From: Micromonospora sp. DSM 45708
GTDB taxonomy: Bacteria > Actinomycetota > Actinomycetes > Mycobacteriales > Micromonosporaceae
Length of the DNA stretch: 64,000 nucleotides
Assembly (NCBI RefSeq): GCF_039566955.1
Contig: NZ_CP154796.1
Location: forward strand, 4,154,001-4,218,000
Direction: 5' to 3'
Positions 42,299-49,508 of this stretch are shown in pieces (within the stretch, counting starts at the first letter, position 1; every line of letters begins with the position of its first letter). The notes beneath the pieces are model-generated. The model was not told the origin of the DNA. It saw only the letters and a list, made by a program, of their open reading frames with translations, and searched no databases. The position numbers and the translations under genes are program-made.

Positions 42299-42859
42299 TC
42301 AGCCCGCCGCCCGCCACTCCCGCGCCAGCAGGGCGTAGACCGCCTCGTCGGTCCACTCGCCCTTGACGAACTCGTTCTCCCGCAGGTGCGCCTCGCGACG
42401 CATGCCCAGCCGTTCCAGCACCCGGGCCGAGGCGGTGTTGCGGGCGTCCAACCGGCCGACGATCCGGTGCAGGCCCAGGCCCTCGAAGCCCAGCCGCAAC
42501 AACTCCCGGGCCGCCTCCGTCACGTAGCCGTGGCCGGTGTGGTCGGGATGGGCCACGTAACCGATCTCGCCCTGCCGGTGCTCCGCGCTGGTCCAGGTAA
42601 GCAGCACGTCCCCGACGAACACGCCGGTGTCGGCAAGCGTCACGGCCAGGTTGAGCACGTCGCCCGGCGCGCGCAGCGCGGTGCGCCGGACCAGCCGGTC
42701 GATCGCCGCCCGGGCGGCGACGTCGTCGTACGGCTGGTGGTAGAGGAACCGGGTGACCTCCGGGCGGCCCCGGTAGTCCCGGACCACGGCGAGGTCGTCG
42801 GCGGTGAAGGCACGCAGCACCAGGCGCGCGGTGCGCAACGGCAGATCGGGTACGAGCAC
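42299..42859 (-). CDS. GNAT-family N-acetyltransferase (RimJ/RimL-like)
   Basis: A 186-aa acetyltransferase. LRTARLVLRAFTADDLAVVR at the N-terminus, IGYVAHPDHTGHGYVTEAAR (acetyl-CoA pyrophosphate loop, about 115-134) and IVGRLDARNTASARVLERLG are the RimJ/RimL-type signatures. It transfers acetyl to an alpha-amino or side-chain amine of a protein or small molecule; the target is unknown. Monocistronic. Confidence 0.9.
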   Translation of the reverse strand: MLVPDLPLRTARLVLRAFTADDLAVVRDYRGRPEVTRFLYHQPYDDVAARAAIDRLVRRTALRAPGDVLNLAVTLADTGVFVGDVLLTWTSAEHRQGEIGYVAHPDHTGHGYVTEAARELLRLGFEGLGLHRIVGRLDARNTASARVLERLGMRREAHLRENEFVKGEWTDEAVYALLAREWRAAG

Positions 42860-42924
42860 CCCGGCAGGCTACGGGCTGCCGGCGCCCCGGTCAGCCCGGT
42901 TTCGGCGGGCGTGACGCCAGCGGG

Positions 42925-43116
42925 TCAGGCGACCGACTTCGCGTGGCAGACGAACGCCTGCCAGGAGCGTGGCGTGAAGGCCAGGACCGGGCCCTGCCGA
43001 TCCTTGCTGTCCCGAACGGCGACCACACCGGGGAGGTTGTCGGCGACCTCGACGCAGTTCCCGCCGTTCGTCCCGGACTTCGTTGACGTACGCCACCGGG
43101 CGTTGGTCAGGTCCAT
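42925..43116 (-). CDS. DUF397 small protein
   Basis: A 63-aa DUF397 protein: WRTSTKSGTNGGNCVEVADN, VAVRDSKDRQGPVLAFTP and a C-terminal WQAF. The family is abundant in streptomycetes and relatives, nearly always paired with an XRE-DUF5753 regulator. Its ATG lies inside the last codons of the upstream XRE gene (10-bp overlap), with GGAGG in front. In studied pairs the small protein acts with the regulator in development or antibiotic control (BldB/WhiJ-like systems), from memory. Confidence 0.9.
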   Translation of the reverse strand: MDLTNARWRTSTKSGTNGGNCVEVADNLPGVVAVRDSKDRQGPVLAFTPRSWQAFVCHAKSVA

Positions 43117-43899
43117 GTCAGTGCCGCCTCCTTGATCAGTGCCAGGGAAAGCTTCCGGGGAAGGGCGTCCCGGACGACGCTCTCCCAGGTGCGTTGAAGC
43201 TCAGCAATCTCGGCCGAACCGCTGACCGTCTCCGATCGGACCTGGTTGTCGGCCGAGGGCGGAATCGTCCGGCATGGTCGCCAGGATGAAGCCGCCTTGC
43301 AGCCCAGGGTAGAGCCCGGTCTCCTCGGGCACGACATGTATCCGGACGTGCGGCAGCTCAGCAGCCGCAGCCAGGTGTTCCGACTGTTCCCGCATGATCA
43401 TTCGGCTGTCATTGACGGTGCGCCGCAGGACGGCCACGTCGAGCACCACCACGAGGCGAGGCGGATTCTCCCGATTCAGGATCGACTGGCGGTCGATACG
43501 GGAGCGAACCCGCTGTTCGATCTGCTCAGGGGTGAGATGGCCTCCCGCGTGCAGGATCGCCCGTGCGTACCCCTCGGTCTGCAGCAGTCCCGGCACGAAC
43601 GCGGGTTCGTACCAGCGCAGGGCCGTTGCCTGCTCCTCGACACTGATCCATTCGCGGAGCCAAGGCGGGGCCAGGTCCAGAACTGACAGCCGATCGAGCA
43701 ACCGTCCGAAGATGCCACCCGTCTGCAGCGCCCTGTCGATAGCCGCCGCATAGTCGGTGGTGGGCGGCCTGCTTCCAGTCTCCACGGCACTGACATGCGT
43801 GCCGGAGTAGCTGATCAGTCGACCGAACTCCTCCTGGTTGAGCCCTCGCGTCGTCCGGAGACGGCGCAGCTCGTCGAGCAGGATCTCCGCCGCAGTCAT
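43107..43899 (-). pseudogene. XRE-family regulator with DUF5753, frameshifted near its C-terminus
   Basis: From the ATG at 43899 (GGGGA upstream): helix-turn-helix LRRLRTTRGLNQEEFGRLIS and ISYSGTHVSAVETGSRPP, then the DUF5753 domain (LREWISVEEQATALRWYEPA, FVPGLLQTEGYARAIL, VVPEETGLYPGLQGGFILAT). After MPDDSAL (about 43255) the expected ADNQVRSETVSGSAEIAELQ lies in another frame that runs to 43107, overlapping DUF397. A short deletion in GGCCGAC, where other members read about GYxDN, would explain it. The unshifted frame ends at 43201, so a protein lacking the last 40 residues could still be made. Confidence 0.8.
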
Positions 43900-44094
43900 G
43901 GTCACGGTCCCCAATCTTTCCCCAATCCCCAGCCCCATCTCCTCAGCGCCTCTCACCAGTGGAGAAGCCTCCCGCCAGCGTCACTCCACAAGCGCCGGAT
44001 TGCTTCCGCGACCGATCTGTCAACACGCAGAGTTTCATACCGAAGACCAACAGTGAAGGCCGGCTCCCGGCTAGCAACCTCATCGGAGGTGGAC

Positions 44095-44283
44095 ATGGGT
44101 CGGTGGAAGTGGTTCCAGCGGCAGGACGAGCCCGTCGACGTGGTGCAGTGCCCGGCGTACGCGCACCGGGGCGGCGCCTACGGCACACACGGTCCGGAGG
44201 CGTCGGCCGACGACCGTCCTTCGGACCGGCCCCGGGACGGACGAGCCGGCCACGACACCAGGCATGCGCGGAGCGCCTCGTGA
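44095..44283 (+). CDS. Small hypothetical protein
   Basis: A 62-aa ORF beginning MGRWKWFQRQDEPVDVVQCP, with CATCGGAGGTGGAC (GGAGG) in front of the ATG. Rich in His/Asp/Arg toward the C-terminus. No known domain recognised. It starts a tightly linked chain with the next ORF (4-bp overlap). Such small ORFs frequently accompany XRE-DUF397 loci; the real function is unknown. Confidence 0.6.
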   Translation: MGRWKWFQRQDEPVDVVQCPAYAHRGGAYGTHGPEASADDRPSDRPRDGRAGHDTRHARSAS

Positions 44284-44456
44284 CGGGGGCGGAGCAGCGG
44301 CTGCCCGAGCCGCCGTTCGCCGTCGTCATGGCCGGCTACGTCGTCGACCTGCACCATCGGGACGTGTGTTCCCGGTGCCGGCCGGACGGCGGCTGCGAAC
44401 GGCTCACCCGGGCCGGGGAGACGCTCCGGGCGTGGCGGGACCGGAAGCGCGGGTGA
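44280..44456 (+). CDS. Small hypothetical protein with CxxC
   Basis: A 58-aa ORF from a GTG overlapping the previous stop (GTGA). It contains the Cys-containing segment DLHHRDVCSRCRPDGGCERL, which could bind zinc, and ends in ETLRAWRDRKRG. Overlap with both neighbours suggests translational coupling. No assigned function. Confidence 0.6.
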   Translation: MTGAEQRLPEPPFAVVMAGYVVDLHHRDVCSRCRPDGGCERLTRAGETLRAWRDRKRG

Positions 44457-44724
44457 CGCCGCGTGCCGGGGAGCTGTTGGAGATCAGCCGGGCGGCCTCG
44501 GTCCAGTTCGTCCGGCCGATCATGTTCCGCGTGATCAGGACGCTGGACTGGACCACGTACGACGGGTGGGCCTGGCTGGAGGGTTACGAGCTGGACGCCA
44601 CCGGCGACGCTATCGCCCGCCGGACCGTCTTCGTCCGGCCGGCGGCCCTGCGCCGACTGTCGCCGACCAGCCCACCAGCCCACCAGCCCACCAGCCCACC
44701 AACCGACGCGGCAACGCACCGGTA
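44453..44724 (+). pseudogene. Small ORF of unknown function lacking a stop before its terminator
   Basis: From the GTG at 44453 (overlapping the previous stop) the frame reads VTPRAGELLEISRAASVQFV, then a protein-like stretch with TYDGWAWLEGYELDATGDAI and ends in RRTVFVRPAALRRL about residue 69. It then enters a CACCAGCC tandem repeat (about 44676-44704) and the terminator hairpin, and stays open antisense to yebC until 45532. The natural stop has probably been lost, perhaps through repeat expansion. End given at the hairpin. Confidence 0.45.
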
Positions 44725-44770
44725 CGGCGTAGTGGCGGTATCCCGGGTCTGGGATACCGCCACTACGCCG
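44725..44770. terminator. Bidirectional hairpin terminator before yebC end
   Basis: Perfect 20-bp stem CGGCGTAGTGGCGGTATCCC (44725-44744) with 44751-44770, six-base loop GGGTCT. It separates the rightward small ORFs from the leftward yebC gene, so it can end both transcripts. Confidence 0.85.
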
Positions 44771-44794
44771 AGCTGGTGTCGATCAAGAAGGGGG

Positions 44795-45544
44795 TCAGCC
44801 GACCGCGGCCATGACCTCGTCGGAGACGTCGAAGTTGGCGTAGACGTTCTGCACGTCGTCGCAGTCCTCCAGCACGTCGATCAGCTTGAAGATCTTGCGG
44901 GCGCCCTCCTCGTCCAGCGGCACGTTCACGCTGGGGATCAGGGAGGACTCGGCCGACTCGTACTCGATGCCGGCGTCCTGCAACGCGGTCCGGACCGCGA
45001 TCAGGTCACCCGGCTCGGAGATCACCTCGAACGCCTCGTCGAGGTCGTTGACCTCCTCGGCGCCGGCGTCGAGGACGGCCATCATCACGTCATCCTCGGA
45101 GGTGCCGGCCTTCGGCACGATCACCACGCCCTTGCGGGAGAACATGTAGGACACCGAGCCGGCGTCGGCCAGCGAACCGCCGTTGCGGGTCAGCGCGGTG
45201 CGGACCTCGGTGGCGGCGCGGTTGCGGTTGTCGGTCAGGCACTCGATCAGCATCGCCACGCCGTTCGGGCCGTAGCCCTCGTACATGATCGTCTGCCAGT
45301 CGGCGCCGCCGGCCTCCAGGCCGGAGCCCCGCTTGACCGCGCGGTCGATGTTGTCGTTCGGGACGGAGTTCTTCTTCGCCTTCTGGATGGCGTCGAAGAG
45401 CGTCGGGTTGCCGGCCGGGTCGCCGCCGCCGGTGCGGGCCGCCACCTCGACGTTCTTGATCAGCTTGGCGAACATCTTGCCGCGCTTGGCGTCGATCACG
45501 GCCTTCTTGTGCTTGGTGGTCGCCCACTTTGAGTGGCCGGACAT
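44795..45544 (-). CDS. yebC: YebC/PmpR-family regulatory protein
   Basis: A 249-aa member of the YebC/TACO1 family. Start [20 protein letters not shown] with [20 protein letters not shown] and [20 protein letters not shown] as hallmarks. Members act as transcription regulators or, in some cases, help ribosomes translate proline stretches (from memory). It is normally directly upstream of ruvC; here the ruv genes are 28 kb away. The frame is open further upstream, but no sensible start lies there. Confidence 0.95.
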
Positions 45545-46028
45545 CTGATACCTCCGTCTGTTGACCCACGCCTGCGTCGACTGCTCGCGCCGGCACCCCA
45601 CCGCCCGGGGACCGGGCGCCGCGAGCCGCAGCACCCCGACGGCTCCGCGTGATGGGCTGGGGCGGTGACGGCCCTGCCGAACCGTCGGCAATCCTACCGA
45701 GGCCGCGCCCCGGGCGTCGCACACCCGCCGGCCGGATGCGGCAACCGGGCCGGAGTCACCGCCGCGCCGGGCGGATGACGGAGATCCGACAATCATTCGG
45801 GTACGCCCCGGGCCGCCGCGCCCGATGGACACCACGCCACCCGTCGGATGGCGATCATGTCGCGTATTGGCGTCGACCTGCGTCTTTGGCTCGGCCGGCG
45901 GCACACGCTCAACCGAACAGCCAACCGGGCCCAACGACGGGCCAGTCTCTCCTGCCTTGTCCGGTCCTACGGAGCCGATTGGCATCCGGCTAGCCTCCAA
46001 ATCTCCGAAAGCGATGAGCGGAGGAAGC
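45545..46028. other. 484-bp non-coding gap between yebC and the VirD4 cassette
   Basis: Divergent promoter region serving yebC (minus) and the unknown cassette gene (plus). GC content appears to fall around 45840-46010 relative to the flanks. I see no convincing gene, palindrome or repeat. Open frames here are extensions of the flanking genes without ribosome-binding sites. Confidence 0.5.
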
Positions 46029-46955
46029 GTGCTCGAGACGTTCGACGAATTCTCCGCCGGAATCGACATGCTGGGGCCCCAGGGCGTGGACGCCCTGAAT
46101 GGTTTCTCCCTCATCGTCGAACTGCCCGCGGCGCGGGACCTCCAAGGACTGGACGCGTTGCGGCGTGAACTGGGCGCGCGACTCTACCGGGCGGTGGCGG
46201 AAGTGCTGGAGGCCAGCGAGCTGCACGAGGTGGACACGCTGCGGCTGGACTGGAGCGACGGGGACGTCGGCGTGGTCTACAAGGAGCCCTCCTTCGGTTT
46301 CCGCATCGACATCCGGCGGGACCTGCGGATCACCCTCAGCCGTTCGGGATCGTCGCTGCGGTTGTTCCACAACTGGTACCGGCTCCTGATGCCGTACATC
46401 CGGGGGCTCGTCTCCCGAATCGCGATCGACCTGTCCGAGGTGCTGCACTCCGACTTCGATCTGCAACCCCTGCGCGCCGCCTACCGCTTCTCGATGATCG
46501 TCTACGACTTCATTCCGGTGCACCGGCAGAAACCGGTCAGCAGCCACGAACTGATCGGACCGCTGCTGTCCCGCCGACCCGACGAGGACGGCCGGTTCCG
46601 TCCGGTGCCGACCGGCCAGGACGCGGCCAGCTCGCTGCGCACCGGTCGGCTCGACATCAAGATCTCCAATTTCCGGGAGGCCTCCCCCGGCGTGCACCTG
46701 CGGGAGGTCTACGACATCCAGGCTCCGGCCAATCAGGGCTACCGGGGCATCTGGCTGGACTTCCACTCCATCGCCGAGACGATCGGCTCGGACAATGCGG
46801 AGCCGGGTGCCCGCATCGCGCCCCGTCCGGATTTCCTGCTGGAGAACTACGAGGTGCCGTACCGCGACTTCTTCCGCGACCGGGTGGTGAAGGGTTTCAT
46901 GGCGGACTTCTTCCGGGAATGGAACTTCTCCTGTGCCGTCGGCACGATGCCATGA
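46029..46955 (+). CDS. Unknown protein, first gene of the VirD4 cassette
   Basis: A 308-aa soluble protein I do not recognise. A GTG at 46029 with GGAGG upstream is chosen over the open frame to 45825. It has alternating hydrophobic/charged segments ([39 protein letters not shown]), a Trp-rich helical stretch ([20 protein letters not shown]) and no membrane helix or signal. It resembles neither conjugation relaxases nor pilins. The stop overlaps the ATG of the next gene (ATGA). It may be a specificity or regulatory subunit for the ATPase; function unknown. Confidence 0.75.
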
Positions 46956-47491
46956 GTCAGGAATCGCTCAACACGCTCCAGGTCGTCGGGTTGGCCGTCA
47001 CGCTCACCCTGAGTGTCGTCGCCCTGATCCTCTCCTGGCAGAACAACCGCGCCACGGCCCGGGAGGCGCGGATCGCCGGCGAACAGCTGGAGGCGTCGGT
47101 GGTGCCGGTCGCCATGATTCAGGACTCCCGGCTCACCTGGCGCGGGCAGGAGCTGGTGGTGCTCTCCGTCCGGCTGCGCAACGTCGGCGCCGGCCCCATG
47201 CTCGGCCTGCGGATCGACCAGATCACGTTGGACCACTCGGCGCTGGAGTTCGTGCCGCTGGGCGAGCCGAAGGCGGACGCGGTGCAACCGATGACGGACA
47301 TCGAACAGCGGCTGCGGTTCAGCGACCCGCCGGGCATCCCCGAGCTGGCCTCGCTGGTGCTCCGGATCCGCTACTACGACGTGCTCGGCAACGAACACGA
47401 CAAACCGCTCAACCTTCGCATCTCGGCCGGGTCCGGCAGCGGCACGATGACCGGCTTCACGCCCGCCCACATCACCCGTCGTCGAGCGTGA
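46952..47491 (+). CDS. Single-span membrane protein, second gene of the VirD4 cassette
   Basis: A 179-aa protein. Residues 8-30 form one membrane helix (LQVVGLAVTLTLSVVALILS), followed by a short coiled-coil-like basic stretch (RATAREARIAGEQLEA) and a beta-rich cytoplasmic or extracellular domain (VVLSVRLRNVGAGPMLGLRI). The starting Met overlaps the stop of gene 1. Since the following VirD4-like ATPase lacks membrane helices, this small protein might anchor it. No family recognised. Confidence 0.75.
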   Translation: MSQESLNTLQVVGLAVTLTLSVVALILSWQNNRATAREARIAGEQLEASVVPVAMIQDSRLTWRGQELVVLSVRLRNVGAGPMLGLRIDQITLDHSALEFVPLGEPKADAVQPMTDIEQRLRFSDPPGIPELASLVLRIRYYDVLGNEHDKPLNLRISAGSGSGTMTGFTPAHITRRRA

Positions 47492-47501
47492 GGGGATCAC
47501 G

Positions 47502-48884
47502 GTGTCCAAGCTGATCATCGGACGCTTCCTGGCCCGCCACCTCGATCCGGAGTCGAAGTCGAGGAGCCAGTTCGCGCCGCGCCGACCGAGCGTCACCGAC
47601 GCCCGGATCCGACTCGGCCTGCGCGAGGAACACATCATCGCGGACGACGCGCTGGGCCCGGTGGTCGCCTCGGACGACGACAGCCATCTCATGACCATCG
47701 CCCCCACCGGCGCCGGCAAGGGCCGCGACGTCATCATCCCGAACCTGCTCAGCTACGAGGGCTCGGTGGTGGTGCTCGACCCGAAGGGGGAGAACTACGA
47801 CGTCACACACGCCCACCGGCGCGACGCGCTGGGCCACGAGATCGTGCTGCTCGATCCCTTCGGCGCCAGCAACGGCAGCCGAGCCGACCGCGGCGCCCTG
47901 AACCCCTTCGACGTGTTCGCCGAACTCGGTCGGGACAACGAGGACGCCGAAGAGCCGGAGGACTTCGGGCGGCTCCTGTCCGACCTGCTGATGGGGGGCG
48001 AGAAGTCGACAGTCGAGCCGTTCTGGGACGAGATGGCCCAGCTCCTGATCGCCGGGCTGACCACCCACCTGATCACCGCGGAGGCGGAGGCCGAACCGAC
48101 GGGCGCCTCCTCGCTGACCCTCCAGAAGCTGCGCAGTCGGCTGTTCCAGAGCGACCTGGTGATGTATCTGGCCGAGGCGTTGGACAACGACCGGGACGGC
48201 CGGATGCCGGCCGGCACCCGGCAGGAGTTCCAGATGCTGCTCGGCGTCGATCAGCAGAAGACCTTCCCCAGCATCGTGGTCACCGCGGCCCAGCAGCTCG
48301 CGCCGTTCAGTTCCCGGCGGACGGTGGAGGCCACCGACCGCACCAGCTTTCCGCTCGCCCACCTGGTGGACCCGGACCGCCGGATCTCGATCTACGTGGT
48401 CGTTCCGCCGCACAAGCTCCGTACCCACCAACGCCTGCTCCGGGCGTGGATCGGTTGCCTGCTCTACTACGTGATGAACAGCCGGACGATCAACCAGTCG
48501 CGCCTGCTCTTCCTCATCGACGAGGCGGCGCAACTGGGCCGGTTCTCCCTGCTCCAGGACGCGATCACCCTGCTGCGCGGCTACGGGCTGCGCACCTGGA
48601 CGTTCTGGCAGGACCTGGCGCAGCTCACCAGCATCTACAAGGGCGTCGGCGAAACGATGATCAACAACTCCGGCGTGCTCCAGGTGTTCAGCCCGGCGAA
48701 CTTCGGCGCCGCCGCCGAGCTGTCCCGACGGCTCGGCGTCAACGTGGGCGAGCTGTTGCAGTTGTCCCCCGGCGAGCAGGTGGTCGCCTTCAAGAGCGAG
48801 CAGCCGACCCGGATACAACGCTTCAACCACCTCACCGACCCGGTGCTCCGGGAGTGGGCCGCACCCAATCCGCGACACCACTGA
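47502..48884 (+). CDS. VirD4/TraG/TraD-type coupling ATPase
   Basis: A 460-aa P-loop ATPase of the type IV coupling protein family. Walker A IAPTGAGKGRDVIIPNLLSY (residues 66-85), VVLDPKGENYDVTH (the VirD4 signature), Walker B RLLFLIDEAAQLGRFSLLQ (about 334-352), and TFWQDLAQLTSIYKG (Arg-finger/Gln loop). It lacks the N-terminal membrane helices of typical VirD4 (usually 500-650 aa). No relaxase, other Mpf gene or integrase is nearby, so it is an orphan. The GTG start is 10 bp after the previous stop. Stand-alone relatives could serve defence or effector transport. Confidence 0.88.
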   Translation: MSKLIIGRFLARHLDPESKSRSQFAPRRPSVTDARIRLGLREEHIIADDALGPVVASDDDSHLMTIAPTGAGKGRDVIIPNLLSYEGSVVVLDPKGENYDVTHAHRRDALGHEIVLLDPFGASNGSRADRGALNPFDVFAELGRDNEDAEEPEDFGRLLSDLLMGGEKSTVEPFWDEMAQLLIAGLTTHLITAEAEAEPTGASSLTLQKLRSRLFQSDLVMYLAEALDNDRDGRMPAGTRQEFQMLLGVDQQKTFPSIVVTAAQQLAPFSSRRTVEATDRTSFPLAHLVDPDRRISIYVVVPPHKLRTHQRLLRAWIGCLLYYVMNSRTINQSRLLFLIDEAAQLGRFSLLQDAITLLRGYGLRTWTFWQDLAQLTSIYKGVGETMINNSGVLQVFSPANFGAAAELSRRLGVNVGELLQLSPGEQVVAFKSEQPTRIQRFNHLTDPVLREWAAPNPRHH

Positions 48885-48902: not shown

Positions 48903-49508
48903 TCAGGAAGCGGCCCGGACGAGGTCCACGAAGAGCCGGTGCAGCCGCAGGTCGCCGGTCAGCTCCGGATGGAACGAGGTGGCCAGCAGGTTTCCCTGGC
49001 GGACCGCGACGATCCGGTCGGCGGCCGGGCCGTCGGTGACCCGGCCGAGCACCTCCACGCCCGCGCCGACGCGCTCCACCCACGGCGCGCGGATGAACAC
49101 CGCGTGGAACGCGTCGCCGTCGACCCCGGCGATCGCCACCGGCGCCTCGAACGAGTCGACCTGACGGCCGAACGCGTTGCGCCGCACGGTCATCTCGATG
49201 CCGGCGAAACCGCGCTGGTCGGGACGGCCGTCCAGCACCTCGGTGGCCAGCATGATCATGCCGGCGCAGGAGCCGTAGACCGGCATGCCGTCGGCGATCC
49301 GCTTGTCGATCGGCTCGCGCATCTCGAAGATGTCCACCAGCTTGCTGATCGTGGTCGACTCGCCGCCGGGCACCACCAGGCCGTCGACCGCGTCCAGCTC
49401 GCCCGGCCGGCGGACCGGCCGGGCGTCGGCGCCCGCGCCGGCCAGCGCCGCGACATGCTCGCGCACGTCGCCCTGGAGGGCCAGCACCCCGATCACGGGT
49501 ACGGTCAC
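48903..49508 (-). CDS. pdxT: Pyridoxal 5'-phosphate synthase glutaminase subunit
   Basis: A 201-aa class I glutamine amidotransferase that supplies ammonia to Pdx[32 protein letters not shown], catalytic Cys in [12 protein letters not shown] (about residue 82) and His in [19 protein letters not shown] are intact. The GTG at 49508 has GGAGG upstream. It is convergent with the VirD4 gene (18 bp apart) and downstream of pdxS. Confidence 0.96.

Follow-up and report, generated by a model that had tools for sequence, protein, structure and literature searches.

The window analyzed here is a 64,000-nucleotide stretch of the genome of Micromonospora sp. DSM 45708 (7,016,307 bases in one contig; NZ_CP154796.1, positions 4,154,001 to 4,218,000). 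It contains three genes, termed A, B, and C, that lie head to tail on the + strand at positions 46029 to 48884, between yebC (upstream) and pdxT (downstream); the names of these flanking genes are those given in the initial sequence annotation. All three open reading frames (ORFs) had positive coding scores and were recovered as the tight unit that the annotation had described (Table 1). The last gene, C, encodes a VirD4/TraG-type ATPase without a membrane domain, which belongs to a supported lineage of transmembrane (TM)-less, mostly orphan VirD4 ATPases.

By profile and motifs, C is a member of the VirD4/TraG ATPase family, with ATPase activity predicted. It matched PF02534 with an E value of 8.3e-52 over profile positions 43 to 385, its matches to TraG-D_C and TrwB_AAD_bind were both above cut-off, and its Walker A and Walker B motifs were both intact. 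The closest solved sequences were Cag5 (2.7e-8) and, weakly, TrwB (0.0017). A test for HerA failed (DUF87, 13.2 bits versus a cut-off of 23.2; HerA_Thermprot, 9.4 versus 800), and the FtsK profile was not among the matches of C. The VirD4/TraG coupling proteins of type IV secretion systems (T4SS), which have been studied as gatekeepers of conjugation and effector secretion, share with C the ATPase core with both Walker motifs and the TraG-D_C region. However, C lacks their N-terminal TM domain, falls in a separate supported group, and has no evident relaxase or mating pair formation (Mpf) gene beside it. The maximum 19-residue hydropathy of C was 0.90, and as the stop-to-stop frame of 477 codons extends only about 17 codons beyond C, no TM helix was missed upstream. 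The initial description of C as a coupling-protein-type ATPase without membrane helices of its own is therefore upheld.

The surroundings of the unit were likewise as first described. Among the called genes of 30 to 64 kb of the window, which were read by eye (Pfam was run on the trio only), no relaxase, Mpf, integrase, or transposase gene was evident, nor was any known conjugative element of which the locus could be a fragment. At four orthologous sites, relaxase and Mpf genes were also not evident among the called genes, again read by eye and without a profile scan.

The single membrane span proposed for protein B was borne out, with a hydropathy peak of 2.41 at residue 9 that marks one N-terminal TM helix. 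In the structure model of B, a helix covers residues 3 to 49, and an Ig-like beta-sandwich is predicted at residues of about 54 to 158; the charge pattern of B suggests that this sandwich is cytosolic. B had no above-cut-off match in the profile libraries. A gave zero matches in Pfam, NCBIfam, and PADLOC up to an E value of 10, and its AlphaFold model comprises two halves, each with a roughly beta-alpha-beta4-alpha layout. Kinship of A with TIGR04255 was considered and rejected, as there was no NCBIfam match up to an E value of 10 and the hhalign probability to one member was 0.1. No relatives of A were found in IMG/VR contigs.

Table 1. Features of the three-gene unit and its flanks (positions in the window).
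Feature	Position	Strand	Description
Gene A	46029-46955	+	308 amino acids (aa), GTG start; in-frame ATG at 46014 possible, giving 313 aa
Gene B	46952-47491	+	179 aa; 4-bp ATGA overlap with stop of A
Gene C	47502-48884	+	460 aa, TM-less VirD4/TraG-type ATPase; start 10 bp past B
TM helix of B, predicted	46976-47032	+	residues 9-27, hydropathy peak
Walker A of C	47700-47723	+	residues 67-74, APTGAGKG
Walker B of C	48507-48524	+	residues 336-341, LFLIDE
yebC	44795-45544	-	flank, divergent from A; 469 bp to the ATG at 46014
pdxT	48903-49496	-	flank, convergent with C; 18-bp gap

The unit is rare. Searches of 5.8 billion proteins, which require shared 5-residue words, returned seven clusters for A at E values up to 1e-3, one of them the window's own, and five clusters for B; a wider A profile added one cluster, named Catellatospora coxensis. 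Within the genus, A was detected in 6 of 160 genomes (five close copies and a distant one in genome G039) and C in 9 of 160 at E values up to 1e-3, with the five close copies of C in the same five genomes as those of A. A was present in 7 of 354 genomes of the family and, in a phylum sample of 396 genomes, only in the window's own. The order yebC, A, B, C, pdxT was identical in all five carriers, at one site, and the reading frames of A, B, and C were open in all five orthologous sets. The ratio of nonsynonymous to synonymous substitution rates (dN/dS) was below 1 for each gene in the six pairs computed per gene; in pairs that involved the window, it was 0.05 to 0.37 for A, 0.26 to 0.64 for B, and 0.08 to 0.31 for C. 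Because of this shared order, the open frames, and dN/dS values below 1, we consider the unit to be old within part of the genus and held at one site under purifying selection.

These results alter two points of the initial annotation. The unit had been called a cassette, possibly one that sits in varied sites. A and C do co-occur in the same order in five of five carriers, but as all five share one site, the description as a cassette in varied sites is not supported. The unit had also been said to interrupt a pdxT-yebC pair. The flanking genes are indeed on the opposite strand and the site is identical in all five carriers; however, an empty pdxT-yebC site was not found in 800 kb of genome G086.

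Distant A-type proteins were also found beside ATPase genes. In G244, from another genus of the family, an AAA+ gene (AAA_2, E value of 1.1e-14; ClpX-like by eye) is followed by A' (22% identical to A; E value of 8.1e-17), a VirD4-like ATPase gene, and a gene for a 281-aa protein, with a convergent gene for a TM protein. This VirD4-like ATPase matched PF02534 at 7.6e-27 and C at 6.2e-9, with a hydropathy peak of 1.29. In G039, the gene before A' is an AAA_2 gene (also ClpX-like by eye), and no VirD4-like gene adjoins A'. Overall, a VirD4-like ATPase gene lay directly after the A-type gene or one gene on in six of seven genomes, five of which represent one orthologous locus. The initial pairing of A with the ATPase thus stands, as A is found with C in five of five carriers and A' lies beside a VirD4-like gene in G244, rather than A being mostly apart from it. 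By eye, the gene after the VirD4-like ATPase gene of G244 (L037:11490-12335) encodes two similar halves; its single weak match was to DUF4913 (E value of 0.049), which also occurs in a T4SS-like cluster of the window's genome.

The lineage of C was resolved in a midpoint-rooted tree of 23 core sequences, from which conj_G233, G319 (whose match was in three pieces), and L057/L071 were left out. C fell in a clade with support of 98/97, termed clade I. Its 10 orphan rows comprised four Micromonospora orthologues (C and three others) and sequences from a gammaproteobacterial metagenome-assembled genome (MAG), Hirschia, Sinorhizobium meliloti, a planctomycete MAG, Runella, and Micromonospora G140; the phyla represented are Actinobacteria, Proteobacteria, Planctomycetes, and Bacteroidota. 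Four TraG proteins of MOBQ-typed plasmids, the nearest sampled conjugative relatives of C, formed a separate group (88/93), and Ti VirD4 and Ti-type TraG lay outside clade I. A second orphan set, on the opposite side of the tree, comprised G244 with G116/G055 (99/96) and G197/G172, alongside G295 and G318, which, like G233, were labeled conjugative from their neighbors as read by eye. Among the conjugative controls, an annotated relaxase gene was near the coupling-protein gene at L072, L073, L074, L076, and L077, and an annotated VirD2 endonuclease at L075.

By hydropathy, an N-terminal membrane domain was missing from nearly all clade-I proteins examined. Outside the family of the window, 23 loci of this clade were examined, and at 22 of them hydropathy before Walker A was at most 0.96; at the remaining locus (L137), Walker A was missed by the pattern, and the whole-protein hydropathy peak was 1.19. 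Peaks of up to 1.94 were present inside the core of some clade-I proteins. Judged by score alone, full-length matches of the clade-I type occurred in 16 of 101 genomes of Hirschia's family (at least 445.8 bits; next match, 310.9) and in 4 of 97 genomes of Planctomycetales (at least 432.1 bits; next match, 241.4), both counts including the centre genomes, which were also part of the query alignment. Five viral-contig proteins matched the clade-I alignment, four of 554 to 599 aa with hydrophobic N termini by eye and one of 464 aa. No A-type protein was found in the three genomes of L005 to L007, an empty answer that carries no weight by itself. In six genomes of Hirschia's family (L132 to L137), the orphan VirD4 gene was at most three called genes from a fumarate hydratase-like gene, with no immune-type neighbor seen and with a Lyase_1 match in the set of near genes; this pattern points to a lone TM-less VirD4 gene that is inherited vertically.

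Gene contexts were counted at 13 representative clade-I sites besides that of the trio. A NACHT/STAND-like or caspase gene was present in the examined stretch at six of these sites, with matches above curated cut-offs at three. In G140, a 2079-aa NACHT protein above cut-off (L036:2958-9197) is encoded convergently with, and overlapping, the VirD4-like gene (L036:9164-10390). In the product of the latter, arginine replaces the Walker A lysine and histidine replaces the glutamate after Walker B, and it is likely a pseudo-ATPase in an immune-type locus. The S. meliloti site encodes an nSTAND1-ankyrin protein above cut-off, an annotated patatin, and a tetratricopeptide repeat (TPR) protein whose NB-ARC match did not reach its cut-off. 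Two caspases are annotated at the Runella site, and the one that was scanned had a caspase match above cut-off. In the gammaproteobacterial MAG, a protein encoded about 4 kb on carries an FGE domain above cut-off and a NACHT match below it (25.4 versus 26.7 bits). Genes for large proteins lie directly downstream in G815 and G812, with AAA_16 matches below cut-off (28.8 and 18.8 versus 32.6 bits). In G812, the VirD4/STAND-like pair is adjoined by a gene for a 961-aa protein with a GPPGTGKT P-loop and one for a 447-aa protein (L124:14321-18501); the near set's McrBC and AAA_5 matches probably stem from these two genes, in which case the locus would be a restriction-type island.

Some clade-I genes have a different kind of neighbor. 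A gene for a homologous partner of about 245 to 254 aa lies directly upstream of the orphan VirD4 gene at L127 to L131 of Hirschia's family (the L129 frame is 191 aa) and in S. meliloti (L055:5041-5805), with E values down to 3e-12 between the two groups. Because this upstream partner recurs, a soluble partner with an orphan ATPase is a repeated plan. Kinship of A itself with this alphaproteobacterial partner received no support (hhalign probability of 1.4).

In the second orphan set, the ATPase can be part of a larger protein. G116, from the same genus as the window, encodes a single 1678-aa protein (L050:5320-10356) that ends in a VirD4-type ATPase, with PF02534 above cut-off and matches to Trypsin_2 (22.8 versus 27.6 bits), AAA_16, nSTAND5, and TPR below cut-off. 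A Trypco2 gene is next door (74 bits, above cut-off), and a TM protein resembling B in layout is encoded upstream. G055, also of this genus, encodes a 1710-aa protein (L051:9142-14274) that is 86% identical to that of G116 over 1669 residues. The likeness to B of the upstream proteins of G116 and G055 is one of layout only, as judged by eye. A vWA gene and a PP2C gene adjoin the VirD4-like gene of G197, together with genes that look kinase-like by eye, and a JAB-ThiF gene is near that of G172.

We tentatively propose, with confidence just short of even, that A-B-C is a chromosomally fixed module in which B tethers a domesticated coupling-type motor that acts together with A within the cell, perhaps as part of an immune-type response. 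B, with its sandwich toward the cytosol, would tether C to the inner face of the membrane, by analogy with coupling proteins that lack a TM domain (TMD). C is probably a ring, and A may act as a soluble adaptor that brings a client to the motor or gates it. As neither Mpf genes nor a relaxase are at hand, the motor would pull or remodel DNA or protein inside the cell and export nothing. The purpose is the least certain part of this model; the likeliest would be a cell-intrinsic conflict response, directed at nucleic acid entering the cell or at protein that is foreign or damaged. Two observations suggest this use: NACHT/STAND-like, caspase, and trypsin-like proteins are repeatedly found next to, or fused to, relatives of C, and two distant A-type proteins adjoin ClpX-like AAA+ ATPases. 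A defense-type use is therefore our leading guess as to purpose, with a housekeeping one close behind.

NTP-dependent conflict systems offer a partial parallel. According to excerpts of the papers, these systems include FtsK ATPase domains that were predicted to be inactive (Kaur et al. 2020, PMC7159879) and, in a 2021 follow-up, were described as both active and inactive (PMC8195603). The likeness lies in those relatives of C that occur with or in STAND-like, trypsin-like, and Trypco2 proteins and in the loss of catalytic motifs in G140. However, the trio has no STAND/NACHT or MoxR-vWA core, and such domains are present only at the sites of some relatives. The terms TraG, T4SS, type IV secretion, and VirD4 had zero occurrences in the main texts of PMC7159879 and PMC8195603, and related terms were absent from those of PMC13092281 and PMC12799240. 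The initial annotation knew of no described system of this composition. Titles and abstract openings of the open-license literature likewise yielded no account of immune-type loci with orphan VirD4 ATPases, but the ATPase itself does have TM-less orphan VirD4 kin.

Several observations weigh against a defense-type module. Many defense genes, unlike A-B-C, are not confined to one site. PADLOC gave no match to A, B, or C, and profile scans of the trio revealed no recognizable NTPase sensor, nuclease, protease, or other effector. B could not be aligned with the TM protein near the G244 gene, and kinship of the two was rejected (hhalign probability of 0.7). In the context count, no NACHT/STAND-like or caspase gene was present in the examined stretch at 7 of 13 sites (L006, L007, L125, L127, L132, L139, and L140), and at four of these, from Hirschia's family (L007, L125, L127, and L132), the neighbors look like housekeeping genes. 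Two others are ambiguous. At L139, a gene 2.6 kb on resembles that of the S. meliloti NB-ARC/TPR protein (31% over 105 aa, 3e-5), and at L140 (G872, Planctomycetales), a gene for a 777-aa protein with a DEMGLGKT helicase motif (L140:5638-7971) lies two genes from the orphan VirD4 gene and probably accounts for the near set's DrmD/DpdE matches. Finally, a comparison of near with far genes at 16 loci, with up to 25 families listed per scan, gave no clear enrichment of conflict families. AAA_22 and AAA_16 were each found in 4 of 94 near genes, possibly the same ones, and AAA_22 in 2 of 104 far genes, with AAA_16 not among the 25 families listed. PADLOC matches were also no more common near than far among the 25 listed. 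G918 (a 3.5-kb contig), G172 (a near copy of G197), same-site replicates, broken loci, and loci that were conjugative by eye were left out. This comparison is weak, as near and far genes share their islands (the NACHT-FGE gene of the gammaproteobacterial MAG is among the far genes) and only 25 families are listed per scan. As the counts show no clear excess, the association with conflict genes consists of individual striking cases rather than a proven enrichment. The defense option raised in the initial annotation thus gains from relatives of C near NACHT/STAND-like or caspase genes or fused to trypsin/STAND-like regions, but not from neighborhood enrichment.

Some of the same evidence would fit a housekeeping role, in which the domesticated motor serves chromosome, envelope, or protein quality functions and is not involved in defense; we regard this role as somewhat unlikely. 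The fixed site and purifying selection of A-B-C agree with such a role, as do the several clade-I genes of Hirschia's family that are single, among housekeeping-like genes, and in recurring positions, and the AAA+ neighbors of distant A-type proteins, which match AAA_2 and look ClpX-like. However, the unit is dispensable, as all but 5 of the 160 genomes of the genus lack close copies; several relatives, moreover, sit with NACHT/STAND-like, caspase, or trypsin-like proteins.

A role as a conjugation remnant or helper, in which C is a TMD-less coupling protein, anchored by B, that either assists an element in trans or survives from a lost one, is improbable. The family of C and its nearest sampled conjugative relatives, the TraG proteins of MOBQ-typed plasmids, are in keeping with this origin, and according to excerpts of PMC7434980 and PMC12857230, TMD-less coupling proteins have been described as a subfamily, and some of them have a small membrane protein as interaction partner; an example is TraJ of pIP501, whose membrane partner is TraI. 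In that description, TraJ/TraI resemble C and B in combining a coupling ATPase without a TM domain and a small membrane protein in the same cluster, but they work in conjugation, whereas no conjugative transfer operon is evident by eye around A-B-C; TraI, moreover, has two predicted TM segments, whereas B has one TM helix and an Ig-like domain. To our knowledge, pIP501 has no counterpart of A. The window's genome does contain a T4SS-like cluster about 1.8 Mb away, at about 2.40 Mb (L181:1764-11271), with a TrbC/VirB2-like match below cut-off, a GH19/SLT-like protein, and DUF4913; no relaxase was noticed in it by eye. However, a coupling protein of its own is encoded in this cluster (PF02534; hydrophobic N terminus, hydropathy of 2.27), which lowers the case for a helper role of C. 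Against a remnant or helper also stand the lack of an evident relaxase or Mpf gene in the neighborhood, the separation of clade I from the sampled conjugative coupling proteins, the lack of a match to A among 72,556 plasmid records, and the absence of decay in the five orthologous units. It is very unlikely that C is a substrate receptor for another secretion system (e.g., type VII) and A its cargo or chaperone, as no secretion gene was evident nearby by eye, even though coupling proteins can recruit proteins, membrane protein B is present, and A is directly upstream. Mobilization in trans and effector export, both raised in the initial annotation, found no positive evidence.

If the reading of A-B-C as a tethered intracellular motor with a possible immune use is extended to its relatives, TM-less orphan VirD4 ATPases might constitute an undescribed class of motors, recurrently recruited to bacterial cell-intrinsic immunity with exchangeable anchors and partners, although we consider this broader proposal unlikely. 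The anchors would be small proteins such as B, and the partners would be A or the 245- to 254-aa alphaproteobacterial protein, or else sensors of the trypsin/STAND-like type fused to the motor. The motor would grip incoming DNA or protein at or near the membrane and trigger or execute a response, and the Micromonospora A-B-C unit would be the simplest, effector-free form. If so, a coupling motor without a secretion apparatus and membrane domain would have a second career inside the cell, in a lineage whose chromosomal position is fixed in some groups, whereas in others its members adjoin, or form part of, NTPase and protease proteins of immune type. Micromonospora provides both a compact three-gene test case and, in the same genus, a fused trypsin/STAND-like-VirD4 protein.

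By eye, the far side of yebC (42386 to 45500 in the window; L031 to L034) varies among the carriers, while the order of A, B, and C is constant. The variable genes include XRE-type regulators, toxin-antitoxin-like genes, and ABC transporter genes.

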